The notes under the pieces: model-generated
What the model saw: only the letters and a program-made list of their open reading frames with translations
What the model was told of the DNA's origin: nothing
The model's database searches: none
Position numbers and translations under genes: made by a program
Shown here: one piece after another, positions 56,783 to 62,339 of the stretch
Position numbering within the stretch: the stretch's first letter is position 1
How the letters are laid out: every line of letters starts with the position of its first letter
Source: Bacteroidota bacterium
GTDB taxonomy: Bacteria > Bacteroidota > Ignavibacteria > Ignavibacteriales > Ignavibacteriaceae
Reading direction: 5' to 3'
Length of the DNA: 64,000 nucleotides
Assembly: GCA_021824565.1 (NCBI GenBank)
Contig: JAKAKL010000142.1
Location: forward strand, 1 to 64,000

Positions 56783-58474
56783 TTATTTGGTTAAAACTGA
56801 TTTCGGCAATTCAAAAATATTTGAAGGTTCTGCTCCCTTCTCTTTGATTTGTCCAATGCTTTCAAAGTTAGTGTTTATTAGTTTCATAACGTCCTTTATA
56901 ACGCCAAGCGAGCGCTGACTGAGTAAGTCGATTTTTACAAGCCCTAAATCTTCTATGGGATACATATCAGGCTGGGTAATAATAAGACCAAGACCTTTGT
57001 TCTTTGCATATTCTAATGCAACATAGTCTGTCATTGGTGCCGGCGTTATTACGATCCCGGAAGGATGTATGCTAAGGTGGCGCGGATAGTCCGCGATTTT
57101 TGAAGCAACGGAGATAATAGATTTCCATGGTTCTGAATTAAAGTTAAGCGATTTAGTCTCGGGGAATTTTTCTGAGATGCCTGGTAAGTTTTTCGCGCTG
57201 GTCCATGGAATAAATTTACTAAACTTTGATATCTCGCTTTCAGGTATGCCAAATACTTTTGCAACTTCTCTGAATGCTGAACGTGCTCGAAAAGTAACCG
57301 TAGTTGAGATCATTGCTACCCTGTCGTAACCGTATTTTTCAAAAACATATTTTATTATTTCATCTCGTTCTTTCCAGCTAAAGTCAAGATCAACGTCGGG
57401 CGGAGATGTTCTGCCGCGGTTTAAAAACCGCTCGAAGTATAAGTTGTATTTTAAGGGATCTACTTCTGTAAAGTTAAGGCAATATGATACAAGGCTGTTT
57501 GCCGCAGAGCCTCTGCCTATATGCATCATGCCTCGCTTCTTTGCCTCGTTTATTATGTCCCACACTATTAAAAAATAATCTGCGTAGCCAAGCTCATCAA
57601 TTACCTCAAGTTCGTACTGCAATCGCTTCACGGCAGCTTCCGTGATCGGCTGGTATCTTTCAGATAAACCGTTAAATGATATTTTCCATAAAAAAGAAAA
57701 TGCGGTTTCTTTGTTAGGCAAAGGAAATGTAGGAAACTTCAGCCTGCCCAGCTGCATGTCAACGTTGCATGACTGGGCTATCTTTTCAGCGTTCCAAACC
57801 GCTTCGGGTATCGCGCGCCAGTCATTTCTTAATTCTTCGGGTGTCTTGAGATAGAATTCTTCATCGGCAAGTTCTTCTTCCGAGATGTTGTCAATTGTTG
57901 TGTTTAGCCTTATTGCAGATACTGCCTTGTGAAGCAGAAAATCTTTTTGATGAACGAAGTATGAAGGGTGGGAAGCCGCAATCTGCATGTTGTTGGCTCT
58001 TGCATATTCATAAAGCGCGCGGGTCTTCTTTTTATGCTTCTCTGTAATTATTAGCTCAACGAACAGGTATGTACGGATCTCATTTGTAAGTTCAATTTGT
58101 TTGAGGAGTGCTATTGAAGAAGTAAGTATAAAAATATTATCTGCAGGCTGCGAGAGAGCTCTCACGAGAGAAAAATCTTCTTTCAGTTTCCTTGATGTAA
58201 TTAACTTGCATAGATATGAATACCCTGCGTTATTCTTTGCGAGGAAGACTGCGTGCAGCTCTTTGTCTTTGGGATCGTCAATATATGCCCCGATAATCGG
58301 TTTGATATTTTGCTCAGCCGCTGCTTTAGTAAATTGAATCAACCCGTACATTGCGTTTGTATCTGTAAGCGCGGCGTAACGGCTGCCGGACTTTTTTGCG
58401 AATGATACGAGATCAGGAATAGGTATTGTGCCTTCTAGTAAAGAATAATTTGAGTGCGCGTGTAATGTGAACAT
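56783..58474 (-). CDS. dnaE: DnaE-type polymerase III alpha, N-terminal half (PHP, palm, thumb)
   Basis: 563 residues, about half of a normal DnaE. PHP domain (1 to about 200) starts 'FTLHAHSNYSLLEG'. Then comes 'HIGRGSAANSLVSYCL' and palm motif 'SPPDVDLDFSWKERD' with catalytic D360 and D362, 'DRVAMISTTVTFRARSAFRE', 'YPRHLSIHPSGIVI', and the third catalytic Asp D516 in 'GLVKIDLLSQRSLG'. The protein stops about 45 residues later, at the palm-fingers boundary. The fingers, clamp-binding and OB parts are encoded at 59745-61427 on the other strand. No frameshift or internal stop is present. It follows dinB by 45 bp on the same strand, like an error-prone dinB-dnaE2 unit. Both halves together could form a functional polymerase, but this is untested. 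Confidence 0.9.
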   Translation of the reverse strand: MFTLHAHSNYSLLEGTIPIPDLVSFAKKSGSRYAALTDTNAMYGLIQFTKAAAEQNIKPIIGAYIDDPKDKELHAVFLAKNNAGYSYLCKLITSRKLKEDFSLVRALSQPADNIFILTSSIALLKQIELTNEIRTYLFVELIITEKHKKKTRALYEYARANNMQIAASHPSYFVHQKDFLLHKAVSAIRLNTTIDNISEEELADEEFYLKTPEELRNDWRAIPEAVWNAEKIAQSCNVDMQLGRLKFPTFPLPNKETAFSFLWKISFNGLSERYQPITEAAVKRLQYELEVIDELGYADYFLIVWDIINEAKKRGMMHIGRGSAANSLVSYCLNFTEVDPLKYNLYFERFLNRGRTSPPDVDLDFSWKERDEIIKYVFEKYGYDRVAMISTTVTFRARSAFREVAKVFGIPESEISKFSKFIPWTSAKNLPGISEKFPETKSLNFNSEPWKSIISVASKIADYPRHLSIHPSGIVITPAPMTDYVALEYAKNKGLGLIITQPDMYPIEDLGLVKIDLLSQRSLGVIKDVMKLINTNFESIGQIKEKGAEPSNIFELPKSVLTK

Positions 58475-58519
58475 GTTCTTTTCAATTTTTGATACCGGTT
58501 ATAAAAAGCCGGGTAATTT

Positions 58520-59662
58520 TCAATTCTTCCCTATGTGAATAGAGTTGTAACCATACTTGCCGCGGATTTTCATTACGGCGCGAAGCATCCGTTTCCTTAT
58601 AACATTTTCATCTGCAAACAAAACTTCCTGCTCGCCAAAGCTGCTCAATTTGCTTAAATGAATTCCTATGAGCCGTACTCCGACTCTCCGTGTATATGCT
58701 TTTCGGAAGAGATCGACCGCGGTGTCGTAAACAACTTTATCATCATCAGTATTTTTAACTGTCTTAGCTCTTGTAATAGTAACAAAGTCTGAATAGCGCA
58801 GCTTAATAGATATCGTAGAAGATTGGAAATTTTCATCCCTTAAAAGCTGGCACGCTTTCGCAGTCAGATCAAAGAGAATAGATTCGATTTTTGCTTTATC
58901 AACTAAGTCGGTATCGAATGTAGTCTCTTTAGATATGCTTTTTCTTTCGTGCTCTACAACTACCAGATCATTCCCGCGACCGTTTGCTTTTTCCCAGAGG
59001 TCTAAACCGAATTTACCCAGTATAGCGGCAAGATAATCCGGTGATGTATCTGCTATATCGCTTACAATCCGGAAGCCCCGTGTACGAAGCAGCGGCAGCA
59101 GCTTTTTACCTATGCCTGGGATCTTCTCGATCGGAAGCGGAGCTAAAAATTCTTTCTCTTTTCCGGCGGGAACATACGTAACTCCCATCGGCTTGTTAAA
59201 GTCCGAAGCTATCTTAGCAAGCGTCTTGTTGGAAGCTATACCAATAGAACAAGGCAGCTTAAATAGATTGAAGATTTCAGACTGAATCCTTTTAGCGAAT
59301 GAAAGAGCGTCGCCGTAAATAGTCTCGCAGCCTGTAAAGTCAAGGCTGAACTCATCTATTGAAGCCTGCTGGACAACCGAGAAATAACCATCGAGAAATT
59401 TTTTCACTAACTTGGAATAACGACCATACTCTTTACCGTGACCGTGTATAAATAATGCGTTTGGGCAGAGACGGTATGCAGTACGCGCCGGCATCCCGGA
59501 CTGCACTCCATACTTTCGTGTTTCATAACTGCATGCCGCTGCAATTCCCCGCCCGTTTGGGTCCCCCCCAACAATAACCGGCTTCCCCATTAGGGAAGGA
59601 TCAAGTATACGTTCCACTGATACAAAAAACGCATCCATATCCAGGTGAAAGATTGTTTTCAT
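58520..59662 (-). CDS. dinB: DNA polymerase IV (Y family)
   Basis: 380 residues. Y-family catalytic motif 1 'FHLDMDAFFVSVE' (D8 in 'LDMD') and motif 'ASIDEFSLDFTG', with 'SCSYETRKYGVQSGMP'-type and 'LPCSIGIASNKTLAKIASDF' blocks. The helix-hairpin-helix is 'KIPGIGKKLLPLLRTRGF', followed by the little-finger domain. Near the C terminus 'GEQEVLFAD' matches the Q-x-x-L-F sliding-clamp motif, though another 'EQEVLF' reading is equivalent. It performs low-fidelity bypass of DNA lesions. It lies between the two dnaE halves and probably shares a transcript with the N half. Confidence 0.95.
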   Translation of the reverse strand: MKTIFHLDMDAFFVSVERILDPSLMGKPVIVGGDPNGRGIAAACSYETRKYGVQSGMPARTAYRLCPNALFIHGHGKEYGRYSKLVKKFLDGYFSVVQQASIDEFSLDFTGCETIYGDALSFAKRIQSEIFNLFKLPCSIGIASNKTLAKIASDFNKPMGVTYVPAGKEKEFLAPLPIEKIPGIGKKLLPLLRTRGFRIVSDIADTSPDYLAAILGKFGLDLWEKANGRGNDLVVVEHERKSISKETTFDTDLVDKAKIESILFDLTAKACQLLRDENFQSSTISIKLRYSDFVTITRAKTVKNTDDDKVVYDTAVDLFRKAYTRRVGVRLIGIHLSKLSSFGEQEVLFADENVIRKRMLRAVMKIRGKYGYNSIHIGKN

Positions 59663-59692
59663 TATTAATTGTCAATTCGCTTGTTTTTAATA

Positions 59693-59721
59693 TTGACTAT
59701 TATGCTTATAGTTAGTAATAT
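59693..59721 (+). promoter_or_regulatory. Promoter-like element with inverted repeat upstream of dnaE C half
   Basis: TTGACT (59693) and TAATAT (59716) are separated by exactly 17 bp, with the ATG 24 bp downstream. Within it, TGACTAT (59694) and ATAGTTA (59708) form an imperfect inverted repeat with a 7-bp spacer, a possible operator. It lies between divergent dinB and the C half and could act on both. Confidence 0.4.
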
Positions 59722-59744
59722 AGTGAACAAATATACACCTAAAT

Positions 59745-61427
59745 ATGGAAAAAGAACCAGACATAAGCAATACCGTTTTGATTGATATGGCAAAATATAA
59801 CCTGCCGAACAGCGGACTATTGCGGATATTCGACAGCATCCCTAAGCTTATCCCCGGGACGGGATTTAACATATTTGAATACCAAAAAGTTTTTAATGAT
59901 GAGATAACAAAAAAACTAATTAGGGAAGGCAGAACAATCGGATGCTTTTACATCGAGTCGCCTGGAATGCGCTCGCTGCTTAAAAGAACAAACTGCGATA
60001 CGTTTGAACTGCTTACCGCAGTCTCTTCTGTAATTCGACCGGGAGTAGCTGAATCCGGAATGATGAAAGAATTTATTGTACGGCATAAAAATTCAAAGCT
60101 TCGAAAATATCTTGTCCCTGAGATGGAAGCTATACTCGGTGAAACATACGGTGTTATGATATATCAGGAAGACGTACTGAAAGTGGCTCATCATATCGCG
60201 GGCTTAAGTTTAGAAGAAGCCGATTTGCTTAGAAGAGCAATGAGCGGAAAGATGCGCTCGCATGCCGCGATGCAATTGATAGTAGATAAATTTTTTCATA
60301 ACTGCAGGGCGAAAGGATACTCGGAAGAGATCACAAATAAGCTTTGGAAACAGATCGAGAGTTTTGCAGGCTATGCTTTTTGCAAGGCTCACAGCGCCTC
60401 ATTTGCGGTGTTCTCTTTCCAGGTGGCTTACCTTAAAGCGCACTACCCGGCTGAGTTTATGGCTGGCGTTCTATCAAACGGCGGCGGGTATTATTCTCCT
60501 GCCGTATATATTAGCGAGTGCAGAAGGTTAGGACTAAAAGTGATGCTTCCTTCTATCAACAAAAGTAATTTTGAATATTCGGCGTACAAAGACACTGTTA
60601 GGATCGGCTTTGCTGCTATTAAGAATTTTGAAAAGGAATCTGCCGGCAGAATAATAAACGAAAGAAATAAGAACGGGAAATTCAAATCACTGAAAGATTT
60701 TTTAAATAGAACCGGCTTGAGCATCACTCAAACCGAGATGCTTATTAAATGCGGCGCTATGGACTGTCTCCATGAAACAAGACCGGCTCTGCTTCGCCTT
60801 TCCGATGTGTATTTCAGAAATAAAAAGATGAATGAGTGCATTGAGGGAAATCTCTTTGCAAACGAACAGACTAACTTAGAAAAGGAAGCATGGACAATGA
60901 AACAATTCAGCATTGAGGAAATATGTGTAAGCGAATACGAAGCCTTTGGCTATATGGTAACAAAGCATCCTTTAGAATTTTTTGCCGGTGAGTTAAAAAC
61001 TGCGGGATTGTCTAATGCGATTGATATTCCAGGGCTTAACGGGCGCAGTGTTAAAATGATCGGCTGGTATATGACGTCTAAGAGAATAACTACCGGCAAA
61101 GGCGAAGTAATGAAGTTCCTTTCCCTTGAGGACTTAACCGGCACTTTTGAAGCTGTCCTTTTCCCTAAGGCATACAGCGCGTTTGCCGAACAAACTATGT
61201 CAATGGGACCCTTCCTGGTTGTAGGCAAAGTTGATGCTGAGAACGGAAATAATATCATCGTTGAAAAGCTTACCGTATTGAGCGTTGAAAAAGCTAAAGC
61301 AGTAACTCAAAAAGATAGAACGAATAATGATTTCTTCGGAGATTCTGAAAAGCCTGCATCGTATGAAGATGTACTTGTAGTCAGCTCTCTGGATAAAGAA
61401 AAGCTTCTGAGGGCGTATACGGGATAA
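59745..61427 (+). CDS. dnaE: DnaE-type polymerase III alpha, C-terminal half (fingers, clamp-binding, OB)
   Basis: 560 residues from ATG 59745. Family similarity begins at about residue 40: 'FNDEITKKLIREGRTIGCFY', 'IESPGMRSLLKRTNCDTFEL', 'SSVIRPGVAESGMMKEFI', 'YGVMIYQEDVLKVAHHIAGL', 'EADLLRRAMSGKMRSHAAM', 'FAGYAFCKAHSASFAVFSFQ', 'AYLKAHYPAEFMAGVLSNGG'. These are the fingers of bacterial DnaE. A helix-hairpin-helix region follows (about 310-345), a degenerate clamp-motif-like 'EGNLFAN' near 370, then an OB-fold (about 440-520). It lacks the PHP and palm, so it has no catalytic Asp. Its first 40 residues do not match DnaE and may derive from the break. It is divergent from dinB. Confidence 0.88.
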   Translation: MEKEPDISNTVLIDMAKYNLPNSGLLRIFDSIPKLIPGTGFNIFEYQKVFNDEITKKLIREGRTIGCFYIESPGMRSLLKRTNCDTFELLTAVSSVIRPGVAESGMMKEFIVRHKNSKLRKYLVPEMEAILGETYGVMIYQEDVLKVAHHIAGLSLEEADLLRRAMSGKMRSHAAMQLIVDKFFHNCRAKGYSEEITNKLWKQIESFAGYAFCKAHSASFAVFSFQVAYLKAHYPAEFMAGVLSNGGGYYSPAVYISECRRLGLKVMLPSINKSNFEYSAYKDTVRIGFAAIKNFEKESAGRIINERNKNGKFKSLKDFLNRTGLSITQTEMLIKCGAMDCLHETRPALLRLSDVYFRNKKMNECIEGNLFANEQTNLEKEAWTMKQFSIEEICVSEYEAFGYMVTKHPLEFFAGELKTAGLSNAIDIPGLNGRSVKMIGWYMTSKRITTGKGEVMKFLSLEDLTGTFEAVLFPKAYSAFAEQTMSMGPFLVVGKVDAENGNNIIVEKLTVLSVEKAKAVTQKDRTNNDFFGDSEKPASYEDVLVVSSLDKEKLLRAYTG

Positions 61428-61451: not shown

Positions 61452-62339
61452 TCATTTATTTTTATTAGATAAACGCGGGAAAGCTTTTAATATCGTTTCA
61501 GGTATTTTTATTACATCGCTGCCTATCAAAAAATTGATAAGCTCAAAAGCGTTTGCCGCCGCGTTACCCTTCGGATGATTGTTATAATAAATTAAAACCT
61601 TTTTTACAGCATTCAATATTTCTTTTATCCTTAAGCCCGCATCGATTATTTCCGCAGGCGTGTACAGATAATTATAACGCTCGCTTCTCTGTTCGTAGGT
61701 CTGCTCCTGCCCGGAACTTTTTATCGAGTTTGTCCACGCTTCTTCATTCCTTCCGTGAAATCTTATATATGCGGTATCGCCTGCAATTACCGGGTTAAAG
61801 CTTACTGCCTGCCCTATTTCCGGCTGATCTATTGTGCATAATGCGCTTCTATTTTCTTTTAAGAAATTAAAGAACCTCTCGATGTACCATGATTTGTGGC
61901 GGACTTCAATATACTTTTCGTATTCCGGGAAGGTATCTATTAACGCTTTTATATGATTCGCGTTTTCCTTGTTCAGCATGAACGAATATGGAAATTGAAT
62001 CAGCAGTCCGCTTAGTCTCTCGGCATTGCTAAGTTTGTCCAGTATTAATTTTACGGACTTTATGTTATCCTTATTGTATTTGCGTTTATGAGTAAAGTCC
62101 TGATGGAGCTTAATTGTAAAAAGAAATTCGTCCTTCTCCTCAACTTTATTTATCCAGCCTTCAACAATTTGAGGATTGATGTATGTATAATAAGTGGAAT
62201 TAACTTCAACGGTATTGAAATACCCGGAGTAATATTTAAGGAAATCAAATGTGCTTGATTGCTGGCAAGGGTAGAAGTTTGGAACCCAGTCCTTATAAGA
62301 CCAGCCGGAAGTGCCGATGTATATTTTAGGCGGAATCAT
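61452..62339 (-). CDS. DUF72 family protein
   Basis: 295 residues. 'IYIGTSGWSYKDWVPNFYP', 'YYSGYFNTVEVNSTYYTYIN', 'LFTIKLHQDFTHKRKY', 'LLIQFPYSFM', 'YIEVRHKSWY' and 'AYIRFHGRNEEAWT' are the conserved blocks of DUF72, a TIM-barrel family of unknown function that often neighbours DNA-repair or nuclease genes. It starts 2 bp after the helicase stop, so it is co-transcribed with it. Length normal. Confidence 0.93.
   Translation of the reverse strand: MIPPKIYIGTSGWSYKDWVPNFYPCQQSSTFDFLKYYSGYFNTVEVNSTYYTYINPQIVEGWINKVEEKDEFLFTIKLHQDFTHKRKYNKDNIKSVKLILDKLSNAERLSGLLIQFPYSFMLNKENANHIKALIDTFPEYEKYIEVRHKSWYIERFFNFLKENRSALCTIDQPEIGQAVSFNPVIAGDTAYIRFHGRNEEAWTNSIKSSGQEQTYEQRSERYNYLYTPAEIIDAGLRIKEILNAVKKVLIYYNNHPKGNAAANAFELINFLIGSDVIKIPETILKAFPRLSNKNK

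Follow-up and report, generated by a model that had tools for sequence, protein, structure and literature searches.

Separate genes for the two halves of a putative two-chain DnaE2 polymerase in the order Ignavibacteriales

The DnaE2 (ImuC)/DnaE2B-PolY-RecA module of Bacteroidetes, in the available parts of its description (PMC12926913), has a second C-family polymerase beside a full DnaE1, a Y-family neighbour with its catalytic residues and a LexA-type box, and no C-terminal domain is found by Pfam. The same features, and the same tree lineage, were found at a locus of a member of the Bacteroidota (class Ignavibacteria), in positions 1 to 64,000 of contig JAKAKL010000142.1 (assembly GCA_021824565.1). 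In this stretch of 64,000 nucleotides (nt), hereafter the window, a DnaE-type polymerase is encoded by two genes on opposite strands around dinB. The difference from the module, as far as those parts describe it, is that here there are two genes, and by prediction two chains, which are often unlinked and differently controlled, and that the cassette includes a DUF72 gene and sometimes a second lexA.

The DnaE of cyanobacteria, a replicative subunit, is interrupted within the fingers, and a split intein rejoins the parts. The likeness to the present locus is that a C-family alpha subunit comes from two genes (parts of PMC6390638 and PMC3901139), whereas here the polymerase is a predicted accessory DnaE2, the split lies in the palm-fingers linker, no intein was seen and a LexA-type box is present. 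The ImuA-ImuB-DnaE2 mutasome is likewise a damage-linked cassette of a Y-family protein and a DnaE2, but the Y-family partner at our locus keeps D8, D103 and E104 (invariant in 16/16 aligned DinB sequences), unlike the catalytically dead ImuB. In the fetched neighbourhoods we recognised no ImuA-like cluster that recurs; most clusters there are unannotated, and no search was aimed at ImuA. A split family-B polymerase of Methanobacterium thermoautotrophicum was reportedly described by Kelman in 1999; going by the title, it is also a polymerase in pieces, but of a different family and archaeal, and to our knowledge it is not tied to damage control.

A 2013 survey lists one Ignavibacteria genome as DnaE1 + DnaE2 (Table 1 in the available part of PMC3919608). 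A split DnaE2 is not mentioned in the main-text parts of the surveys PMC3919608 and PMC12926913, "Ignavibacter" is absent from the available main text of the latter, and "split" in the corresponding parts of PMC3901139, PMC3919608 and PMC12926913 refers to cyanobacterial inteins, gene cassettes, ImuB or tree splits. No report of a split DnaE2 was found in a literature search covering titles and abstract openings, with few subscription journals and preprints and without supplements. A DnaE2 working as two chains would thus be new, if the assembly of the two halves deduced from their sequences holds.

Two complementary polymerase halves in the window

One gene on the minus strand encodes the N-terminal half (N half) and one on the plus strand the C-terminal half (C half) of the polymerase, at the following positions:

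56783..58474, minus strand: dnaE2 N half, 563 amino acids, ATG start, with PHP, palm and thumb and the catalytic residues D360, D362 and D516 (open reading frame (ORF), Pfam, alignment)
58520..59662, minus strand: dinB (Pol IV), 380 amino acids, on the strand of the N half and 45 nt upstream of it (ORF, Pfam, alignment)
59693..59721, plus strand: promoter-like site TTGACT-N17-TAATAT for the C half (consensus match only)
59699..59727, minus strand: promoter-like site TTCACT-N17-CATAAT for dinB-N (consensus match only)
59721..59740, no strand: LexA-box-like palindrome TAGTGAACAAATATACACCT in the dinB/C intergenic region, directly 5' of the C-half ATG (11/14 specified positions)
59745..61427, plus strand: dnaE2 C half, 560 amino acids, ATG start, with fingers, HhH and OB regions (ORF, Pfam)
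61452..62339, minus strand: DUF72 (PF01904) protein, 295 amino acids, of a family that recurs beside the cassette, including the unsplit DnaE2 cassettes of family f12

As a sequence-only reading of the window had claimed, both frames are open at these coordinates, each from its own ATG, and their domains are complementary. Pfam assigns PHP and DNA_pol3_alpha to the N half, and DNA_pol3_finger, HHH_6 and an OB fold to the C half (OB match at residues 437-512 of a chain that ends at 560); it detected no domain beyond the OB fold, and the final stretch is poorly modelled. The PHP, palm and thumb content proposed for the N half is borne out by these domains and by the catalytic triad, in which D360, D362 and D516 correspond to E. 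coli D401, D403 and D555 and are kept in 43/43 aligned N halves. Compared with solved structures, the N half matches E. coli alpha to residue 575-577 and the C half from residue 595; in the sequence alignment, window N534 stands at E. coli 573 and window C44 at E. coli 585. With the N half ending near 576-578 and the C half starting near 585-595, the halves are therefore non-overlapping and no catalytic residue is absent, in agreement with a break at the palm-fingers boundary and with the earlier view that the two chains, 1123 residues in sum, fit one DnaE-type enzyme. Structure models of the single chains gave Pol III alpha as best match for both, namely 3e0d_A for the N chain (E 1.4e-26) and 7pu7_A for the C chain (E 4.9e-30; predicted local distance difference test score (pLDDT) 76.8, predicted template modelling score 0.71).

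A DnaE2 would be expected as a single chain of about 1,000-1,150 amino acids; the window encodes a pair, of 563 and 560. Besides these, one Pol III alpha core was found in the own genome (G000, with the window on contig C81), a full DnaE1 on contig C83, and DnaE1-sized frames of about 1,150 amino acids are present in most of a set of 59 genomes (own genome plus 58 relatives). The proposed Pol IV neighbour was also confirmed, with dinB adjoining the N half and its catalytic residues kept.

Distribution, ancestry and selection of the split

In a class sample of 391 genomes, C-half matches (E <= 1e-75) were found in 87, with 60 of them in the window's order, assigned as Ignavibacteriales by named relatives, and 27 in other families. 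The longest open frame at the C half across the 60 order genomes is 628 amino acids. N-half matches were present in 58 order genomes, 55 of which are among the 60 with a C half, and intact N frames have about 530-590 amino acids. The 38 named loci with a C half belong to Ignavibacteria, Ignavibacteriales, Melioribacter, Ignavibacterium, Bacteroidetes metagenome-assembled genomes (MAGs) and a few "bacterium" records.

The 27 matches outside the order comprise five in family f13 (four C frames of 587-606 amino acids, and one short frame near a contig end), 15 in families f4, f12 and f23 with an unsplit DnaE2 (frames of 1037-1111 amino acids), six shorter frames or fragments, and one of 1156 amino acids and 36% identity that looks like DnaE1. 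Stops inside the match were flagged in 7/15 unsplit matches; in G069, G087 and G159 the extracted ORF is complete at 1028-1040 amino acids, so the stops lie beyond its end, and G059, G113, G125 and G154 were left unextracted. Among the six shorter matches G130 and G165 were inspected, and G111, G119, G141 and G142 were left out. In a phylum sample of 395 genomes, 54 genomes of other classes matched, all with listed frames of 871-1056 amino acids; their clustering with a named Persicobacter sequence is the reason for calling them Bacteroidia here. Within the samples taken, the split characterises this order and a single family of the class (f13), and the unsplit form is the surrounding state.

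In the unsplit family f22, one sequence (G130:C70, locus L125) has one in-frame stop codon in the palm-fingers linker where the split of the order lies, at a position where the congener G165 reads through; this may be an incipient fission in parallel, a gene in decay or an artefact of assembly.

In plasmids and phages, matches were below 60% identity only, with no split pair of this kind among the 40 of 1,996 plasmid and 15 of 1,328 phage records listed. In some Enterobacterial and Acinetobacter plasmid matches (H22-H25, H28-H30) dnaE is in two pieces, with a NUMOD4/HNH endonuclease gene annotated beneath the match, which is another and different way to break dnaE. Unannotated phage contigs from human faeces (H41-H50, H52, H54, H55) encode a DnaE-like protein that has, in its N region, 33-36% identity with the window N half.

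The two halves tend to occur together. Fragments included, 38 genomes of the set of 59 have the C half and 40 have the N half, with both in 36, C only in 2, N only in 4 and neither in 17 (Fisher p = 3e-9; p = 3e-11 with two short N fragments scored absent). The N fragments of G003, G007, G008 and G016, the C half in pieces of G040 and G048 and the C half with one stop of G014 were scored as present; in G034, where a C-like match covers 70 residues at 45%, the C half was scored as absent.

Separate N and C trees were built for 35 genomes out of 43 N and 43 C sequences (method "quick", with support from the Shimodaira-Hasegawa-like approximate likelihood ratio test (SH-aLRT) only); the N tree has 34 split rows, since G086 has C only, and one long Streptomyces row is unsure. 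All split N sequences formed one clade (SH-aLRT 99), as did all split C sequences (SH-aLRT 100), and f13 was sister to the order in both trees (order support 94 for N and 93 for C). Outside the split clades lie the unsplit DnaE2 of the class, the Bacteroidia DnaE2, three plasmid ImuB-linked DnaE2 and then DnaE1. The fork from DnaE1 has an SH-aLRT of 99, and each half is placed with the DnaE2 sequences from other classes and families. Given a single clade for each half, the window polymerase is, by its placement in these trees, of the DnaE2 lineage, and one old fission event behind all split forms is suggested. A DnaE1 or DnaE3 identity, prompted by higher NCBIfam scores for Pol III alpha, was rejected, because neither window half passes the cut-off of any model and the unsplit relatives L119 and L191 also favour Pol III alpha over the error-prone model, which makes the ranking non-discriminating.

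Purifying selection on both halves is strong. In G020-G249, a pair without saturation, the ratio of nonsynonymous to synonymous rates (dN/dS) is 0.025 for N and 0.039 for C, and the remaining pairs, which are more diverged and in some cases saturated, have pN/pS (the ratio of the corresponding proportions) of 0.11-0.22. Across E. coli, 10 unsplit DnaE2s and the split forms, 49 residues of the C half (43 C halves) and 32 of the N half (42/43 N halves, the truncated G077 being left out) are identical. Distances in the N and C trees correlate after regressing out DnaE1 distance (25 genomes with an available DnaE1; partial r 0.535, with 0/5000 label permutations as high), which fits partners inherited together. 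The sequence-only reading had called for a check of close relatives for the same split, and had named intact genes in relatives with decay in this genome as evidence against it; instead, the 60 order genomes are split alike, none with a frame above 628 amino acids, and both halves show strong purifying selection.

The arrangement of the halves varies among relatives. The order N(-)/dinB(-)/C(+) of the window also occurs in the same-genus genomes G001 and G009, and divergent halves with dinB between them were found in these three and in G058, G054, G041, G257, G309 and G046. The halves are divergent without dinB in G019 and G028, convergent in G057, G242 and G360, in tandem with N first in G050, G249 and G020 (with an ORF between the halves in G020), and in tandem with C first in G235, G029 and G006. 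In further genomes they are on separate contigs or far apart, at distances of 0.48 Mb (G030), 0.79 Mb (G018) and 0.66 Mb (G164) in single-contig genomes, and far apart also in G013, likewise a single contig. The C-before-N order and these distances exclude read-through or frameshifting as a general route to a single chain. In f13 the halves share a strand, separated by 2.8 kb in L114 and by 6 kb in L113; the spacer holds two ABC-transporter genes that run the opposite way and, in L113, further ORFs. This arrangement looks closer to the founding event than the inversion-like order of the window. A single inversion of a dinB-dnaE(N) segment, which had been proposed as the origin of the split, is not supported in that form, given that the deepest split family has both halves on one strand and that the window order is one of at least five arrangements.

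A LexA-type box before the C half and the control of the N half

A 20-bp palindrome, TAGTGnnCAnnTGnnCACTA, is common to the regions upstream of the C halves and also precedes lexA. At a score of at least 11/14 it stands before C in 40/43 fetched order loci and in 31/34 named loci (overlapping sets; the truncated L065, L067, L068 and L069 were dropped from the 38 named loci), against a background in which 0.1% of 19,154 equal-length stretches reach at least 11/14 and none at least 12. In the scanned neighbourhoods, 35/35 sites at 12/14 or above stand before C. The three order loci without the box are G020, G249 and G014; in G249 a second lexA stands ahead of the C half in an operon-like row, and the C half of G020 is preceded by the palindrome of the second lexA, TACCATACAnATGTATGGTA. 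Among the named exceptions, L062 and L066 have a second lexA with its own box upstream, and L035 scores 10/14.

The own genome has three sites with at most two mismatches, one of them before lexA, where the palindrome ends 2 nt ahead of the called start, and one before a second Y-family polymerase. Of ten relatives searched at no more than one mismatch, nine had sites, either upstream of the C half or at lexA or in both places, with one further site (G004:C35) left out of this assignment. In 8/10 of these relatives lexA has such a site within about 60 nt of its called start, in some cases overlapping it, and each of the eight has a second copy 26 bp away at 12/14 or better. In the window, the expected start point of the C-half promoter-like site falls within the palindrome, and the -35 box of the dinB-N site overlaps it (three promoter-like sites were found in the region, versus 1.1 expected). 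By these placements the C half looks to be under SOS control by LexA, and the box points to a translesion role for the split DnaE2. The second Y-family polymerase of the own genome (G000:C134:21240, L167), of about 448 amino acids and apparently active, starts 27 nt after its LexA-type box (12/14).

The N half has other neighbours. It follows purD, in a same-strand row including guaB, in G004, G013, G017, G018, G024, G026, G030 and G032 (clusters f3 and f5, identified as guaB/purD by Pfam on the G030 copies), and it follows lexA2-DUF72-dinB in G042, G044, G040 and G035. A second lexA (L084, L087, L102, L104, L108, L144, L203, L062, L066) is often followed by DUF72, dinB and N, with ogt in some. 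The operator-like palindrome TACCATACAnATGTATGGTA, distinct from the main LexA box, precedes 6/7 such lexA genes at a score of at least 16/19, and the seventh (G323) has one intact arm of it.

A dinB-family gene is present in the fetched neighbourhood of 27 genomes, three of them unsplit f12. The 16 aligned DinB sequences share an invariant beta-clamp-type motif, Q345-x-x-L348-F349, and a conserved C-terminal block, RKRMLRAVMKIRxKYG...IG, which may resemble the RecA-NT motif known from mutasome polymerases. All 34 aligned C-half rows carry L370 and F371 close to where E. coli alpha has its clamp motif, without the leading Gln, as described for DnaE2 (part of PMC3919608). In 21 genomes the fetched neighbourhood contains a DUF72 gene, unsplit f12 cassettes among them, and its product is possibly a damage-response protein; a DUF72 gene has been reported near archaeal and bacterial polB2 (part of PMC11791011).

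The two-chain reading and its alternatives

We consider it highly probable that an old and fixed fission has produced a two-chain DnaE2 translesion polymerase, whose chains associate without splicing and work with Pol IV, and whose C half is under LexA. The N chain would supply PHP, palm, thumb and all three catalytic aspartates, and the C chain the fingers, the HhH/clamp-binding region and the OB fold. Known Pol III alpha structures suggest that neither half would be a polymerase alone, so that a non-covalent association of the chains at the palm-fingers interface is most likely. The resulting heterodimer is predicted to be catalytic and mutagenic, and would work in translesion synthesis beside a neighbouring Pol IV predicted to be active, like the DnaE2B-PolY-RecA module of Bacteroidetes. 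LexA would control transcription of the C half in the SOS response, and a single LexA-type box in the window could act on two divergent promoters, that of the C half and that of dinB-N.

More tentatively, and with somewhat less than even confidence, we propose that the split is kept since it gates assembly, such that the mutagenic polymerase would exist only when damage supplies the missing half, as a two-input split polymerase. In part of the order N would be constitutive behind guaB/purD, without a LexA box, and only the fingers/OB chain SOS-induced; in other genomes N would stand behind a second LexA with its own operator and C would answer the main LexA. The idea that SOS supplies one half comes from the unlinked N genes, which lack the C-type box and stand behind purD or lexA2.

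Several observations weigh against the two-chain reading or parts of it. Some genomes have N without C (G005, G035 and G371, and fragments in G007 and G016) or C without N (G014, G053, G227, G341 and G349); several are rated nearly complete, and they may reflect MAG gaps or the lone use of a half. The correlation of N and C distances could partly reflect joint horizontal transfer and not contact. The N chain modelled alone has a pLDDT of 65.7, with most of residues 398-563 below 50 on a shallow 19-row alignment. As for LexA control, the window copy of the box is of the weakest class (11/14), 0/4 loci of f13 have the C-type box before C, no score above 10/14 was found before 14 unlinked N genes and six unlinked dinB-N heads, and the third site of the own genome precedes a gene without evident SOS link. 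A reversed control pattern has four sites in the own genome, versus three per strand for the box (at most two mismatches); the site count therefore proves nothing, and placement is the evidence.

The N-only and C-only genomes also suit a model in which only one half works, having been retained for a different function, with its counterpart a relic or an independent factor, as does the position of N behind unrelated housekeeping genes in eight genomes. We regard this as unlikely, given the aspartates invariant in every aligned N half, the residues of both halves that are identical across split and unsplit forms and E. coli, and the low dN/dS, co-occurrence and rate co-variation of the two halves.

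Slightly less likely still is that the palindrome is the target of another regulator or an RNA hairpin, and not a LexA site. It is not found before the unlinked N and dinB genes scored and is no commoner in the own genome than the control, but it is placed at lexA in the own genome and in 8/10 relatives, there with paired copies 26 bp apart, and also before the second Y-family polymerase. The RNA hairpin in particular was rejected: the NN positions of the arms are often non-complementary (e.g. TAGTGTGCAAATGTTCACTA), which speaks for a DNA site more than for an RNA stem.

Joining of the halves after translation by trans-splicing, through a diverged split intein, appears very improbable. Cyanobacterial DnaE is a precedent for splicing a split C-family polymerase (parts of PMC6390638 and PMC3901139), the N-terminal extension of the C half is poorly modelled and the N-half tails are variable. 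Against this, Pfam found no intein domain in either window half, and the tails vary in length and letters among relatives, unlike a catalytic splicing block. The N halves stop about 0-40 residues past the last palm helix, several of them at once (G020 ends in ...LRETMGKVL), and the C halves listed start about 10-50 residues ahead of the first block common to unsplit DnaE2. Such extensions are too short for intein halves. The earlier statement that no intein is visible therefore stands. The extension of the window C half, of about 35-40 amino acids, is unalignable to unsplit DnaE2; in the window (59745-59860) and its relatives Y18 is nearly invariant and IYDxIPK is in the consensus of 34 rows, a pattern that does not occur in the unsplit linker, suggesting a candidate docking segment that may help the halves to associate.

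A misassembled MAG or a recent pseudogene mimicking a split has a negligible probability, for all that the window comes from a 148-contig assembly of 4.59 Mb with 3.6% contamination: misassembly was rejected for the order as a whole by the same split in 60 order genomes, including the single-contig G030, G018 and G164 with the genes 0.48-0.79 Mb apart, and by the same local order in G001 and G009, and a recent pseudogene by the open frames and low dN/dS of both halves.

If the two-chain reading is true, the palm-fingers interface of a C-family polymerase can hold without a peptide bond, with its halves as freely moving genes across a whole order. Surveys that count DnaE by its active-site domain could overlook the C half and file the N half as an ordinary or truncated DnaE2. 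Two small chains would offer a test bed for DnaE2 biochemistry, compared with one of about 1,100 amino acids, and making only one half would be a natural switch for a mutagenic polymerase.

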